From Streptomyces sp. 1-11 (GTDB lineage Bacteria; Actinomycetota; Actinomycetes; Streptomycetales; Streptomycetaceae), in contig NZ_BJTV01000005.1 in assembly GCF_007176755.1 (NCBI RefSeq), forward strand, positions 62,001 to 126,000: DNA of 64,000 bases, written 5' to 3'. Position 1 is the first letter of the stretch, and every line of letters starts with the position of its first letter. This document shows positions 7,397 to 14,006 of this stretch, in pieces. The position numbers were made by a program, and so were the translations under genes. Below the pieces are notes generated by a model. That model was not told the DNA's origin and did no database searches. It worked only from the letters and a program-made list of their open reading frames with translations.

Positions 7397-8158
7397 ATGG
7401 CCGACGCACCGTACAAGCTGATCCTCCTCCGCCACGGCGAGAGCGAGTGGAACGCGAAGAACCTGTTCACCGGCTGGGTGGACGTCAACCTGAACGAGAA
7501 GGGCGAGAAGGAGGCAGTCCGCGGTGGCGAGCTCCTGAAGGACGCCGACCTCCTCCCCGACGTGGTCCACACGTCCCTCCAGAAGCGCGCGATCCGCACG
7601 GCCCAGCTCGCCCTCGAGGCCGCGGACCGCCACTGGATCCCGGTCCACCGGACCTGGCGCCTGAACGAGCGCCACTACGGCGCGCTGCAGGGCAAGGACA
7701 AGGCGGCGACGCTGGCCGAGTTCGGCGAGGAGCAGTTCATGCTCTGGCGCCGCTCCTACGACACCCCGCCGCCCCCGCTCCCGGACGACTCCGAGTTCTC
7801 CCAGTTCGACGACGCGCGCTACGCCACGCTGCCGCCGGAGCTGCGCCCGAAGACGGAGTGCCTGAAGGACGTGGTCCACCGGATGCTGCCGTACTGGTTC
7901 GACGGCATCGTCCCCGACCTCCTCACCGGCCGCACGGTCCTCGTCGCCGCCCACGGCAACTCCCTGCGCGCCCTGGTCAAGCACCTGGACGGGATCTCGG
8001 ACGCCGACATCGCGGGCCTGAACATCCCGACCGGCATCCCCCTCTACTACGAACTCGACGCCGACTTCCACCCGGTCACCCCGGGCGGCAAGTACCTCGA
8101 CCCGGAGGCCGCGGCAGCGGCCATCGAGGCGGTCAAGAACCAGGGCAAGAAGAAGTAG
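7397..8158 (+). CDS. gpmA: 2,3-bisphosphoglycerate-dependent phosphoglycerate mutase
   Basis: GpmA interconverts 3- and 2-phosphoglycerate in glycolysis and gluconeogenesis. The product is 253 residues, normal length. The phosphohistidine motif [12 protein letters not shown] is at residues 8-19, the second catalytic His region is [17 protein letters not shown], and FTGWVDVNL is typical. TACGCT at 7384-7389 lies seven bases before the ATG, suggesting a leaderless transcript, though GAGG also precedes the start. The last codons (QGKKK, stop) fall inside a direct repeat that recurs at 9899, so this 3' end has served as an attachment site for an integrating element. Confidence 0.97.
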
Positions 8159-8258
8159 CTCTTGGGATCATGCCCCTGAGTTGCGCTTACGGCGCGGCTC
8201 GGGGGCATTTTCACGGCCCGGGCCCTCTCCGGGCCTTCAGGCCCCCCGGGTCCTGCGG
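8140..8258. repeat. attL-like copy of 119-bp direct repeat (gpmA 3' end)
   Basis: The first 23 bp (8140-8162), covering the last gpmA codons and stop, are identical to 9899-9921. Homology continues with scattered differences to 8258/10016, including the terminator hairpin and the GGTCCTGCGG end. The identical block is the probable crossover core; the diverged remainder suggests the element brought a gpmA end from a related strain. Confidence 0.75.
8170..8211 (+). terminator. gpmA intrinsic terminator
   Basis: ATGCCCCTGAG (8170-8180) pairs with CTCGGGGGCAT (8198-8208) and runs into TTTT. The same hairpin is duplicated at 9929-9967 with one mismatch in the stem. Confidence 0.75.
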
Positions 8259-8700: not shown

Positions 8701-9294
8701 CTAGCTACTACACTCAGGAATCTTCCCATTGTGTCCCGATGGCTCCATGTAGCCGCTGTACATCCAGGCTGTGTACTTGTCCTCCCTCGAACTTTCGAGG
8801 TCGGGAGTCGCGTGAGGCTGGTCGGTCGGCCACTTGACCTTGTACCACTTGGTAATGCCCTGGCCTTCGCCGCCGTCGTAGCCGGAGTCTTTCCAGCATT
8901 CAACCCAGACCGTGTGGTGCACGCGGACGAGTCCGACCTGGCGTGCCGAGTCCGGTCCGGGGCAGTCGCTGACGTTGCACGTCCGTACCATCAGTCCCTC
9001 GTCGCCGGCCTGGGTCACCGTGCGGACGACCTTGTAGGCCCAAGGGCCTACCTTGCTTGGGGCCTTGTCCGTCCGGTAGGTGTTCTCCGGAATCGGCTGG
9101 CTCCCCTGGGGGCAGTTGACCTTGGCTCCCTGGCAGCGGGGGCCGTCGCCATTGCCGCCCATGTCGCCGCTCACTGACGCTGACGTGTTCGGCTCCTTCT
9201 TGTCGCCGTCGTCGCTGATGAGCTGCGGGGCGATGATCGTTCCGGCGGCCACGATGACAGCGCCACCAAGTGCAATTTTGTGCCCGGTCTTCAT
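8701..9294 (-). CDS. secreted SH3-like protein, cargo of the decayed element
   Basis: The product is about 197 residues: an N-terminal signal or anchor (MKTGHKIALGGAVIVAAGTIIAP), a Ser/Asp/Gly linker, then a Cys-containing domain. The pattern VRTCNVSDCPG, VHHTVWVECW, WYKVKWP, WMYSGYMEP resembles bacterial SH3 (SH3b) domains that bind cell wall. ATG 9294 is preceded by AAGGA; an upstream in-frame ATG at 9429 would hide the signal peptide. Codon usage is noticeably less GC-biased than in flanking genes, and it lies between the two att-like repeats, so it was probably acquired. Role unknown; cell-wall association is an inference. Confidence 0.65.
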   Translation of the reverse strand: MKTGHKIALGGAVIVAAGTIIAPQLISDDGDKKEPNTSASVSGDMGGNGDGPRCQGAKVNCPQGSQPIPENTYRTDKAPSKVGPWAYKVVRTVTQAGDEGLMVRTCNVSDCPGPDSARQVGLVRVHHTVWVECWKDSGYDGGEGQGITKWYKVKWPTDQPHATPDLESSREDKYTAWMYSGYMEPSGHNGKIPECSS

Positions 9295-9841
9295 CTTGTC
9301 CTTGCCTCTGTGGGACCAGTGGGGAGGATCAGAGTGCACGTCACGGACACGTATGGCGAATGTTAATTGGAAGTGACACCCGAGATGGCGGTTTAGACCA
9401 TTTGCAGTGGATGCTTGCTCTACGCGCATTGCTAAAGGCTGTTTACAAAAAAAGTCCTGTATCTGGTGGTACGGGGGCTGTCGGTGTGGGGATGTTAGAT
9501 ATATCTAGAATGCTGGTTCTGTGCTGGACATCACAAGCCCGCGCGTGCATGTACATGCTAATTCCGTCGAATAAGCAAGCGCTCCGTCACGTTAATTCAC
9601 CTTTGGTGAAGTCGGCTTCGGCTCAGTGAGAGCGAGAGGTCGAGGGTGACTGGGGCGGACGCGGTCAGTCTCAGTTCTAGTCTCGGTCGCCGCGCATTCC
9701 CGTCCGGTACGCACTGGTCCGTGGCCGTCCGACATGCTTCCTGACCTGCGACGCGGGCTGATGGGTGGACGCCGCGGACCGCTGTGGGTCGAAGGCATCT
9801 GCTGTCACTGCGTGTTCGCAGACCGCTCGACAGCCCGATCG
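9295..9841. other. AT-rich gene-free part of the element
   Basis: This stretch has clearly lower GC than the rest of the window (for example AAAAAAAGTCCTGTATCTGG near 9448 and TTAGATATATCTAGAATGC near 9495, which holds the palindrome TAGATATATCTA). I find no supportable gene. It probably contains the promoter of the SH3-like gene and degraded element sequence. Confidence 0.5.
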
Positions 9842-9874
9842 CAGGTCAGCGGGAGTCCGTGTCCCGCTGACCTG
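9842..9874. other. perfect 13-bp inverted repeat near the right att copy
   Basis: CAGGTCAGCGGGA (9842-9854) and its exact complement (9862-9874) flank a 7-nt loop, 25 bp inside the right repeat. It could be a terminator or an integrase/excisionase arm site. Confidence 0.45.
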
Positions 9875-9898
9875 GTCAAGAACGCGGGCTCACAGGAC

Positions 9899-10016
9899 CC
9901 AGGGCAAGAAGAAGTAGCTCTGGCGCTCATGCCCCTGAGTTGCGCGGACGGCGCGGTTCAGGAGCATTTTCACGGCCTGGGCGTTTTCTGGGCCCTCAGG
10001 CCCCCGGGTCCTGCGG
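9899..10016. repeat. attR-like copy of the gpmA 3'-end repeat
   Basis: A displaced copy of the last gpmA codons, stop and terminator. Upstream of the core there is also a short GGTCAAGAAC match to gpmA, separated by a 16-bp insertion. The hairpin ATGCCCCTGA/TCAGGAGCAT with a TTTT tail is kept. Confidence 0.75.
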
Positions 10017-10165
10017 TGCCCAGTCGGACCCGTCCCGGGGGCGGCTGTGGCGGCTGTCGGGCGGGGAGGCTCAGATGTTGCTCAGGCCGCTTGCCCGGGC
10101 TCCCCCGCGATGGTCGGATCACCACATGTTCGAGCGGTGTCAGCCGCTCACTGCTAGGGGGACTC

Positions 10166-11320
10166 GTGGAACATGACCGCCGAAGTCTGCCGGTAAGCGC
10201 TATGCGCGTAAGAACCGGGACGGCAGCCGCGTACGCCGTCGCCGGCCTGGTCCATCTCGTGACGGCCGTGCTGTTCGTCGGCAGCGTGCTGCTGATCGTC
10301 ATCGGATTCGACACGGTCGTTCAGCCGATGATGGGCCTGGTGCTTCTGGGCCTGGCTTTGGCTCTGCGTCCGCGGATCGGGCAGCTGAATCCCGATCTGC
10401 CCACGCTGCGAGAGGCGGATGCACCGGCGTTGTTCGACCTAGTGGGCGGCATAGCCGACACGTGTGGGGTGCGGGCTCCCGATGCGGTCCAGCTCGCTCC
10501 GGAGTTCTCGGTCGCCGTCACCCACTACGGGTTCTCCCGGAAGCGCTGCCTCGTCATCGGCCTCCCGCTCTGGGCCGCTTACCCGCCCCAGCAACGCGTC
10601 GCCGCCATCGCCCATGCGCTGGCCTACGCGGCTCCTCGCAACGTTCGTTCCCGCGCGTTCGTGGCCATGGCCCTCGAGTCATTGACCGCCGGGTCGTGGA
10701 CCGTGCGGGCCAACGAGACCGCGCACATCTCCTGGAACCCCAGCCTGCTCGCCTTCGGTGCGGAAGATGTGGCGCTCGGAGCACGGAGCTTCAACATCCG
10801 GGGCAAGGTCAGCGAGTGGGTGCTGTGGATCCCGCGGACGGCCATGGCCGCGACGGCGCGTCTGCTGCTCTGGCTCACGCTGCCGGCCACTCGGGGCGCG
10901 CTGCTGGAGGCGGACGACGCGGCAGCCCGTACAGCGTCCTCCGAGGCCGCTGTCGCCGCGCTGAACGACCAGGACCTTGCCCGCCCGGTCTGCATCGAAG
11001 CGCATCGCCTGGTGATCGAGACCAAGACACTCGCCCCCAGGCGAGCCGGCGCAGCCCCCCAGCAGGACTTCTGGGAGAGCCTCGCCCGCCAGGCGGCACG
11101 TCTGCGTGAACAACGAGACGGCGATGCCACCCGTGGTCATGCGGATGCCTCGCGCGTGGCCCGGCTGAGCGCTGAGCCGATGCACCTGGCGGCGGTCACG
11201 TTGGATGAGCCCGGCTCGACCCGTATCGCCGCCGAGCTTCGCCTGCCCGAGATGGCGGTGGCGGACAGGATGATGCGGGACGGCGTCGCCGGGGCACAGC
11301 AGCCCACCGCGCTGCGCTGA
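10166..11320 (+). CDS. M48-like membrane protein lacking the zinc-binding HExxH motif
   Basis: About 384 residues. Two N-terminal membrane helices (TAAAYAVAGLVHLVTAVLFV, MMGLVLLGLALALRP) are followed by a soluble domain laid out like M48 peptidases: LFDLVGGIADTCGVRAPDAV, CLVIGLPLWAAYPPQQRVAA, then IAHALAYAAP where active enzymes have AHELGH. Both the catalytic Glu and second His are replaced (HALAY), while the downstream LLEADDAAAR still looks like the third-ligand segment. It is therefore likely catalytically dead. GTG 10166 has AGGGGG upstream; ATG 10202 is an alternative start. It lies just outside the right att repeat, and its partner is unknown. Confidence 0.6.
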   Translation: MEHDRRSLPVSAMRVRTGTAAAYAVAGLVHLVTAVLFVGSVLLIVIGFDTVVQPMMGLVLLGLALALRPRIGQLNPDLPTLREADAPALFDLVGGIADTCGVRAPDAVQLAPEFSVAVTHYGFSRKRCLVIGLPLWAAYPPQQRVAAIAHALAYAAPRNVRSRAFVAMALESLTAGSWTVRANETAHISWNPSLLAFGAEDVALGARSFNIRGKVSEWVLWIPRTAMAATARLLLWLTLPATRGALLEADDAAARTASSEAAVAALNDQDLARPVCIEAHRLVIETKTLAPRRAGAAPQQDFWESLARQAARLREQRDGDATRGHADASRVARLSAEPMHLAAVTLDEPGSTRIAAELRLPEMAVADRMMRDGVAGAQQPTALR

Positions 11321-11507: not shown

Positions 11508-11912
11508 TCAGGGACGAGGGGCCGTCACAGGCTCCGTTTCCCGCTCGCCCGTGGCCGTGGGGATGTCGCTCAGGCCGAGGCGGAGGTGTTCGACGTGGTA
11601 GAGGGCCTGGTCGAGGAGTTCGGCGACGTGGTTGTCGTAGAGGGAGTACACCACCGACCGGCCTTTGCGGGTGCCGACCACCAGGCCGAGGTTGCGGAGC
11701 AGGCGCAGCTGGTGGGAGCAGGCGGACTGCTCCATCTCGACCTCCGCCGCCAGTTCGGTCGCCGGCAGGGGGCCTTCGCGCAGCCGCGCCAGGATGAGCA
11801 GCCGGGAGGGGGTGGCCAGCGCCTGGAGGGTGGTGGCGACCTTGGCGGCACTGGCAGCGTCCAGGCGTCCGCGCGGGACGCCTCCGGTCGGCGGTGCGGC
11901 TCCATGACCCAT
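11508..11912 (-). CDS. ArsR/SmtB-family metal sensor, NmtR/CzrA type
   Basis: A 134-residue winged-helix repressor. The recognition region is MEQSACSHQLRLLRNLGLV followed by the wing GTRKGRSVVYSLYD. The last helix has the spacing D-x-H-x10-H-x2-H (DNHVAELLDQALYHVEH), the alpha5 metal site of CzrA (Zn/Co) and NmtR (Ni/Co). In this family metal binding releases DNA. It is divergent from a P1B-type ATPase gene with an inverted repeat between them, the classic sensor-exporter arrangement. I infer it represses the ATPase and itself. Confidence 0.9.
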   Translation of the reverse strand: MGHGAAPPTGGVPRGRLDAASAAKVATTLQALATPSRLLILARLREGPLPATELAAEVEMEQSACSHQLRLLRNLGLVVGTRKGRSVVYSLYDNHVAELLDQALYHVEHLRLGLSDIPTATGERETEPVTAPRP

Positions 11913-11961: not shown

Positions 11962-12032
11962 GTTCCTGTTACGGTGGTGGGACCGACCCGTCGCGTCCGC
12001 GCGTCCGAACTCGTGTGAAGGACCCCGTTCCC

Positions 12033-14006
12033 ATGTCTTCCACCCTCACCCGCCCGGCCGCGACCGGCGCCGCCCGCGAGGAGGTGGCGCCCCGGCGGCG
12101 CACGCGGATCTTCGCGCTGCCCGAGGCCCGGTGGGCGGCGGCCGCCCTGGTGCTGTTCCTGGTCGCGCTGCCGCTGTACCTGGGCGGTGCGCCCGCGTGG
12201 TCGTGGGGGCCGCTGTTCGCGGCGGTCTACGTCAGCGGAGGTTGGGAGCCCGGCTGGGCGGGCCTGCGGGCGCTGAAGGACAGGACCCTCGACGTGGACC
12301 TGCTCATGGTCGTCGCCGCGCTAGGGGCGGCGGCGATCGGACAGGTGCTGGACGGTGCGCTGCTGATCGTCATCTTCGCCACCTCCGGCGCACTGGAGGC
12401 GATCGCCACCGCCCGCACCGCGGACTCGGTGCGCGGCCTGCTCGACCTGGCCCCCACCACCGCCACCCGGCTGAGCGACGACGGCGGCGAGGAGAGTGTG
12501 CCCACCGGGGAACTGCGCGTCGGCGACACGATCCTCGTGCGCCCCGGCGAGCGGATCGGCGCTGACGGCCGGGTCGTGGACGGAGCCGGTGAGGTCGACC
12601 AGGCCACCATCACGGGTGAACCGCTGCCCGTGGTCAAGGAGGCCGGGGACGAGGTGTTCGCCGGCACCCTGAACGGCACCGGCGCCCTGCGGGTGAAGGT
12701 CGAGCGTGACCCGTCCGACTCGGTGATCGCCCGGATCGTGAGCATGGTCGAGGAGGCCTCCGAGACCAAGGCCCCGACCCAGCTCTTCATCGAGAAGGTC
12801 GAGCAGCGCTACTCGCTCGGCATGGTCGCGGCCACGGTCGCCCTGTTCACCCTGCCGCTGCTGTTCGGCGCCGCGCTGCAGCCCACGCTGCTGCGGGCGA
12901 TGACCTTCATGATCGTCGCCTCCCCGTGTGCCGTCGTGCTCGCCACCATGCCGCCGCTGCTGTCGGCGATCGCCAACGCCGGACGCCACGGTGTGCTGGT
13001 GAAGTCGGCCGTGGTCATGGAACGGCTCGGCCAGGTGGACGCGGTGGCGCTGGACAAGACCGGCACCCTGACCGAGGGCACCCCGAAGGTGACGGACGTC
13101 CGCCCACTGCCGGGTTCCGGGCTCGGCGAGGAGGAACTCCTGCGCCTCGCGGCGGCCGTCGAGCACCCCAGCGAACATCCGCTGGCCCGCGCCGTCGTGG
13201 ACGCCGCCCGCGCCCGTGACCTGGACATTCCCCCGGTGGAGGACTTCACGTCCGCTCCCGGTACGGGCGTCAGCGCGACCGTGGCCGGCCGTACGGTCGG
13301 GGTCGGCAGCCCCACCCGGCTGCTGACGGACGGCACGCACCGGGCGGTCGCCGCCGCCACCGCTCTGGAGGAGGACGGCCGCACCGCGGTCCTGGTCGTG
13401 GCCGACGGCACCCCGGTGGGCGTACTGGGCATCGCCGACCGGCTCCGCGATGAGGCGGCGGCCACCACCGCCGCGCTGGAGCGTCTGACCGGCGCCGCCC
13501 CGGTGCTGGTGACCGGGGACAATCCGCGCGCCGCGGCGCGTCTCGCCGACGAGGTCGGGATCACGGACGTGCGCGCCGGGCTGCTTCCGCAGGACAAGGT
13601 CACGGCGGTCAAGGAGCTGGAGCGGGCCGGCCGGAAGGTGCTGGTGGTCGGCGACGGCGTCAACGACGCCCCCGCCCTGGCGGCCGCCCACACCGGCGTG
13701 GCCATGGGGCGGGCCGGGTCGGACCTCGCCCTGGAGACCGCCGACGCGGTCGTCGTGCGCGACGAGCTCGCCACCATTCCCACGGTGATCGGGCTCTCCC
13801 GCCGTGCCCGCCGCCTGGTCGTGCAGAACCTGGTGATCGCCGCCGTGTTCATCACCGGCCTGGTCGTATGGGACCTGGCAGGCCGGCTGCCGCTGCCGCT
13901 GGGCGTCGCCGGCCACGAGGGCTCCACGGTGATCGTCGGCCTCAACGGCCTGCGGCTGCTCGCCGACGGAGCGTGGAGCCGCGCCCGGGCAGGGCTGGGC
14001 CGGTGA
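12033..14006 (+). CDS. P1B-4-type heavy-metal-translocating ATPase (Co/Ni/Zn export)
   Basis: About 657 residues. Motifs in order: TITGEPLPV (actuator TGE), SPCAV in a membrane helix near residue 296 (metal site), DKTGTLTEG near 340 (phosphorylated Asp), EHPSEHPLARAV (HP locus), GDGVNDAPALAAA, and HEGSTVIVGLNGLRLL near 627. SPC combined with HEG(S)T is diagnostic of subgroup 1B-4 (CtpJ/CoaT/CzcP-like), which exports Co, Ni or Zn. There is no N-terminal CxxC metal-binding domain, also normal for 1B-4. ATG 12033 has GAAGGA about 10 nt upstream; GTG 12015 is in frame. Likely induced by metal through the divergent NmtR-like sensor. Confidence 0.93.
   Translation: MSSTLTRPAATGAAREEVAPRRRTRIFALPEARWAAAALVLFLVALPLYLGGAPAWSWGPLFAAVYVSGGWEPGWAGLRALKDRTLDVDLLMVVAALGAAAIGQVLDGALLIVIFATSGALEAIATARTADSVRGLLDLAPTTATRLSDDGGEESVPTGELRVGDTILVRPGERIGADGRVVDGAGEVDQATITGEPLPVVKEAGDEVFAGTLNGTGALRVKVERDPSDSVIARIVSMVEEASETKAPTQLFIEKVEQRYSLGMVAATVALFTLPLLFGAALQPTLLRAMTFMIVASPCAVVLATMPPLLSAIANAGRHGVLVKSAVVMERLGQVDAVALDKTGTLTEGTPKVTDVRPLPGSGLGEEELLRLAAAVEHPSEHPLARAVVDAARARDLDIPPVEDFTSAPGTGVSATVAGRTVGVGSPTRLLTDGTHRAVAAATALEEDGRTAVLVVADGTPVGVLGIADRLRDEAAATTAALERLTGAAPVLVTGDNPRAAARLADEVGITDVRAGLLPQDKVTAVKELERAGRKVLVVGDGVNDAPALAAAHTGVAMGRAGSDLALETADAVVVRDELATIPTVIGLSRRARRLVVQNLVIAAVFITGLVVWDLAGRLPLPLGVAGHEGSTVIVGLNGLRLLADGAWSRARAGLGR

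Follow-up and report, generated by a model that had tools for sequence, protein, structure and literature searches.

The window, by which we mean the whole stretch of 64,000 nucleotides of Streptomyces sp. 1-11 DNA analysed here, carries a gene that in our assessment probably encodes a membrane-anchored pseudopeptidase of the M48 family, retained for non-catalytic binding by a mechanism that we infer. The gene (10166..11320, +), in a genome of 7.85 Mb, encodes 384 amino acids, with a GTG start, a reading frame uninterrupted over 10166-11317 and a stop codon ending at 11320. It belongs to a longer listed ORF (9734-11320), in which we take the GTG at 10166 as the start because a likely ribosome-binding site, AGGGGG (10156-10161, +), lies just upstream and close relatives align from this GTG. 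The putative ribosome-binding site falls within a stretch of about 105 bp (10060..10165, +) that is conserved alongside the gene in the closest relatives. Measured in 30-bp windows, identity to S. cellostaticus is 0.83-0.93 from 10060 onward and 0.53-0.63 before it, while the 5' stretch reaches 0.83-0.93 in S. bungoensis and 0.67-0.90 in S. diastatochromogenes. Likeness to the three closest relatives covers approximately 10060-11317, the gene and some 105 bp upstream, and the flanks differ.

The zinc site and its M48 background

Neither Pfam nor NCBIfam, PF01435 included, gave a match to the window protein, and its M48 kinship is seen through intact relatives. A profile of eight dead-clade proteins aligned in hhalign with a profile of 20 long-type M48 proteins over 350 columns (E 2e-49), thus across the domain, and an intact paralogue in the same genome (G000:C7:394780-395994, with HELAH), which itself matches PF01435, is 38% identical to the window protein (E 1e-24). 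Additionally, two short-type proteins with intact sites (L019 and L021) just exceed the Pfam M48 cut-off and so bridge the short and long types. The original prediction of an M48-like protein is supported in this respect: the protein is homologous to M48-type membrane peptidases, and its active site is dismantled. Among solved structures, the dead-clade profile had no M48 match at E values of 10 or less and returned only D-tagatose 3-epimerase chains (E 0.23); the best solved matches of the long-type profile, an HtpX homologue (3cqb, E 0.016) and a Ste24 homologue (4aw6, E 0.076), are weak and lie over the zinc helix. An AlphaFold model of the window protein, built with four sequences only, has a mean pLDDT of 35.5. 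Most long-type rows (e.g., L005) carry an N-terminal WCxxCDWNVDP-like segment, resembling a small zinc-ribbon, which the short type lacks.

In the window protein, VAAIAHALAYAAPRN occupies the HExxH position. The former zinc helix, AHALAYA (residues 149-155; 10610..10630, +), reads HALAY for HExxH: the first ligand, His150, is kept, the catalytic Glu151 is replaced by Ala and the second ligand, His154, by Tyr. The claim that IAHALAYAAP stands at the AHELGH position, with the catalytic Glu and one His gone, is therefore accurate; it needs the rest of the chain to be free of an intact HExxH, and a script scan of the whole ORF found none elsewhere. Its companion claim, that an EADD segment of the site remains, does not hold. 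Intact AEYLAD and ALLEAD of the window protein align without a gap (ALLEADDAAARTAS against AEYLADxxAARAGS of intact relatives), so that the third zinc ligand, the Glu of ExxAD, falls on Leu246 (10901..10903, +), a position occupied by Glu in all 41 long-type loci whose sequence was fetched. Of the Glu-Ala-Asp in EADD (residues 248-250; 10907..10915, +), Ala-Asp is all that the protein retains of ExxAD; Glu248 is not a ligand, and its position in the long-type loci holds Leu (36/41), Arg (4/41) or Gln (1/41). One zinc ligand of three, His150, is thus left.

The HPx4R active-site loop, a motif described for PF01435 in PMC7950410, persists as a remnant (11135..11155, +) in which Gly324-His325 replace His-Pro and Arg330 is kept. 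Hence three marks of an active M48 enzyme, HExxH, the ExxAD Glu and HPx4R, are missing from the window protein. The His-Pro is also absent from the intact short-type protein L019, so this loss is not specific to dead proteins.

In the N-terminal part, residues 17-69 (10214..10372, +) form a continuous hydrophobic stretch, which by hydropathy could accommodate two membrane helices and probably does; intact relatives have its aligned counterpart, at 58-116 in the intact paralogue fragment. The two remaining membrane helices of the original prediction are upheld in this predicted form. A third, weak hydrophobic stretch spans residues 219-237. Judged by its sequence, the protein is descended from a membrane-bound zinc protease, having kept recognizable homology, the N-terminal stretch and an alignable domain. 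Its losses comprise the catalytic Glu, two zinc ligands (the second His and the ExxAD Glu) and, in the regulatory HPx4R loop, His-Pro.

Short-type genes and the order of losses

Short-type genes were found in 10 of 295 genomes of the genus. One more row came from a draw of 391 genomes largely overlapping the 295, two from an order-wide draw of 293 genomes, and a scan of named genomes gave three at 69-82% identity, one of them already counted, for a total of 15 distinct rows. Redundant loci were removed beforehand, namely L015, identical to L014, ahead of the trees, and L081, L084, L087 and L095, which are the loci L032, L027, L056 and L038, ahead of the site counts. HExxH is absent from 12 of the 15 short-type rows versus none of the 41 long-type loci, and is kept in L019, L020 and L021. 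The Glu-to-Ala change of the window protein recurs among related species (10/15 rows, window row included), which answers the proposal that homologues be surveyed for the same substitution: the loss is conserved. Nine of these ten also lack the third ligand, which L023 has kept, and in four of the nine the first His has become Gln. L012 reads HALAH, with both His present, probably by reversion from Tyr, the residue found in its nearest relatives. L022 and L074, which read AQELAY, lost their site residues in another order than the window clade: both His ligands are replaced and the catalytic Glu is kept, as is the third ligand in L074.

A second tree, built from 31 rows after leaving out 25 of the 41 long-type rows and excluding the site columns, recovers the short type as one group (support 100/100). 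On this tree the Glu-to-Ala replacement and the third-ligand loss each require one change, and the branch uniting L023 with the nine rows has a support of 94/86. HExxH loss requires two changes; although the best tree thus needs two origins, a single clade for all losses is compatible with the data (p-AU 0.121). Outside the genus, the best match to the dead-clade profile is L080 (E 1.7e-39), whose site is intact. A phage search gave no match, and a plasmid search gave four Streptomyces matches with a coverage of 24-40%.

A pattern of this kind could be left by a protease that had lost its job, whose functionless copies are now at different stages of decay. The stepwise loss of site residues would suit such a relic, as would the patchy presence of the short type in the genus sample and the existence of broken members, namely L018 (no N-terminal hydrophobic stretch), L020 (truncated) and L022 (frameshifted). 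The substitution rates of the dead genes bear directly on this explanation.

Selection and possible roles of the dead gene

We calculated dN/dS by the Nei-Gojobori method for seven dead genes in 21 pairs, a set outside which L018, L022, L023, L072 and L074 fall. The ratio is 0.32-0.55 in 19 of the 21 pairs: the window gene and its three closest relatives give 0.32-0.43 with one another and 0.41-0.55 against L016, L061 and L017, and L016-L061 gives 0.46. The two remaining pairs, L017 with L016 and with L061, reach 0.67-0.71, inside the low tail of neutral draws, and count in favour of a relic. Neutral draws simulated from the window gene (n=1600, no indels modelled) had dN/dS medians of 0.93-1.05 and a minimum of 0.59, so that the ratios near the window gene lie below every one of them; they also overlap those of other intact long-type pairs between species (0.32-0.46). 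Furthermore, the seven tested frames are unbroken at a synonymous divergence of 0.19-0.87, whereas only 0.5-15.5% of the neutral copies were stop-free under this indel-free model. Considering both sides, we regard a functionless relic as unlikely. For the pair formed by the window genome and S. cellostaticus, dN/dS is 0.43 in the dead gene, 0.22 in the intact paralogue and 0.20 in gpm. The dead gene is therefore under constraint, weaker than that on the intact paralogue, and in the L017 pairs the constraint is not clear. In effect, loss of the site is common to related species and goes together with purifying selection, with 2 of the 21 pairs not clearly below neutral.

That related species mostly keep the dead version readable suggests a protein working by binding and not by cutting. 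From the chemistry of the M48 family, peptide cutting would have been lost. Persistence of the hydrophobic stretch and of the domain suggests that the protein binds at the membrane, and the weakest step of the proposal is that the former substrate cleft and the membrane segment may still bind something. The most likely ligands would be unfolded or membrane-inserted proteins at the cytosolic face, a position predicted by the positive-inside rule, which would be held or shielded there. No single fixed partner protease would be served by such a protein.

Regulation of a partner protease, as the original prediction had put forward, would operate through mixed complexes or substrate competition with an active M48 enzyme, the intact long-type paralogue being the candidate. 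The window genome, S. cellostaticus and G207 do have such a paralogue alongside the dead form, with a second hit in G640 as a possible fourth, and a review reports that, in other families, pseudopeptidases can act as regulators of their active relatives (PMC11266112). Weighing against the proposal, the long type occurs in three, possibly four, of the ten genomes with the Glu-to-Ala form, compared with strong matches (E <= 5e-67) in 52 of the 295 genus genomes, and in the window genome the dead gene and the paralogue are on different contigs. A dedicated partner is therefore improbable and, being absent from most Glu-to-Ala genomes, finds no support as a general rule; more distant M48 proteins could be partners. 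Altogether, we consider regulation of an active M48 protease quite unlikely.

The dead clade also has fixed residues of its own, from which an active site might have been re-built, e.g., Cys128, Glu278 and His280. All nine rows lacking both the catalytic Glu and the third ligand carry Cys128 and His280, and Glu278 is shared by the eight of these rows that were aligned for it; in the long-type loci Cys128 is never found (0/41) and His280 once (1/41). However, His280 also occurs in L019, L023 and L074, and Cys128 in the intact L019. The two residues are therefore not tied to loss of the site, and a peptidase with a re-built site is, in our view, highly improbable.

Genomic neighbourhood and relation to known systems

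An all-against-all comparison of predicted ORFs from 16 stretches, in which the ORF caller missed the M48-like gene of L014 and L053, revealed no gene common to all. The reading that no neighbour is conserved was nevertheless dropped, as one small neighbour group consists of XRE-DUF5753 regulators. In a survey of 39 stretches (10 Glu-to-Ala, 5 other short-type and 24 long-type), four of the ten Glu-to-Ala stretches have such a regulator within 1.2 kb (L013, L044, L046 and L096, two of which are close relatives), none of the five other short-type stretches has one nearby, and three of the 24 long-type stretches have one within 1.4 kb (L055, L100 and L108). Ten genomes totalling 89.65 Mb contain 242 of these regulators, a background of 2.7 per Mb, which predicts 0.065 for the ten Glu-to-Ala stretches (Poisson P 7e-7, or 3e-5 with the two relatives taken as one), the family having been chosen post hoc. 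Twenty long-type stretches fetched afterwards contain one within 2.01 kb in three cases, where 0.22 are expected (P 0.0014). No XRE-DUF5753 gene was found in the 15 kb examined near the window gene, and gene order and orientation vary; we thus consider this a locus preference and not an operon. A putative DUF397-like stretch, assigned by its motif, is present in four of nine stretches having an XRE gene. According to PMC10364602 and PMC6262351, XRE genes of this kind frequently accompany DUF397 proteins in Streptomyces and act as regulators of antibiotic production.

Other features surround the gene in the window. Downstream, an ArsR-type regulator (11508-11912, -) diverges from a P-type ATPase (12015-14006, +), which resembles an ordinary metal-efflux pair. 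Upstream, the 3' end of a phosphoglycerate mutase gene (7397-8158) is involved in a direct repeat of 116 bp (85%), at 8134-8249 and 9893-10008. In both S. cellostaticus (L068) and S. bungoensis (L070), this tail recurs 2.7-3.9 kb farther downstream, separated by other DNA, and the repeated tails appear as at an insertion hotspot. The repeat-bounded stretch contains an ORF of 242 amino acids (8701-9429, -) with an N-terminal hydrophobic segment, several Cys and a third-position GC of 0.76, for which Pfam gave no match at E 0.001.

Put together, these data might be read as showing, in living Streptomyces, a protease turning step by step into one that binds, a series seen here in this genus only: from intact forms through Glu-to-Ala and third-ligand loss to loss of the first His in one subgroup, with the emptied cleft and the fixed Cys128 and His280 as a new binding site, at loci sometimes beside XRE-DUF5753 regulators. 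We hold this extended scenario to be rather doubtful in its entirety. The coexistence of intact, partly lost and mostly lost sites in one genus offers in any case a test of the M48 scaffold without cutting, and annotation by family name could label such pseudopeptidases as metallopeptidases. Pseudopeptidases are already known from several metallopeptidase families; the term "M48" is absent from the main text of one 2024 review (PMC11266112). Within one paper library, the titles and abstract beginnings of the matches listed mention no bacterial M48 pseudopeptidase clade, and none is described in passages of PMC7804941, PMC8621943 and PMC9965338.

The nearest known counterparts of the window protein are the long-type Streptomyces M48 metallopeptidases, which share with it the hydrophobic N-terminal stretch, the alignable domain, the Asp of ExxAD and the Arg of HPx4R, but have HExxH, the ExxAD Glu and His-Pro intact in 41/41 loci examined and, in most rows, the WCxxCDWNVDP-like segment. 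HtpX and Ste24 show a weak likeness by way of the long-type profile, whereas the window clade has neither the catalytic residues nor, up to E 10, a match of its own to an M48 structure. As a membrane-anchored protein probably retained for binding, it may work like BepA of E. coli, an M48 protein that takes part in assembly as well as cutting: PMC7950410 and PMC8423444 report that BepA also aids LptD maturation, and that its protease-dead form, E137Q, affects the cell, failing to complement and severely increasing vancomycin sensitivity. BepA differs in its periplasmic location, its TPR domain and its intact site; the window protein has no TPR family match in Pfam. Finally, the pseudopeptidases of M12 and M14 and plant FtsHi, as treated in PMC11266112 and PMC8197885, have likewise lost their sites and perform non-catalytic roles, but belong to different families.
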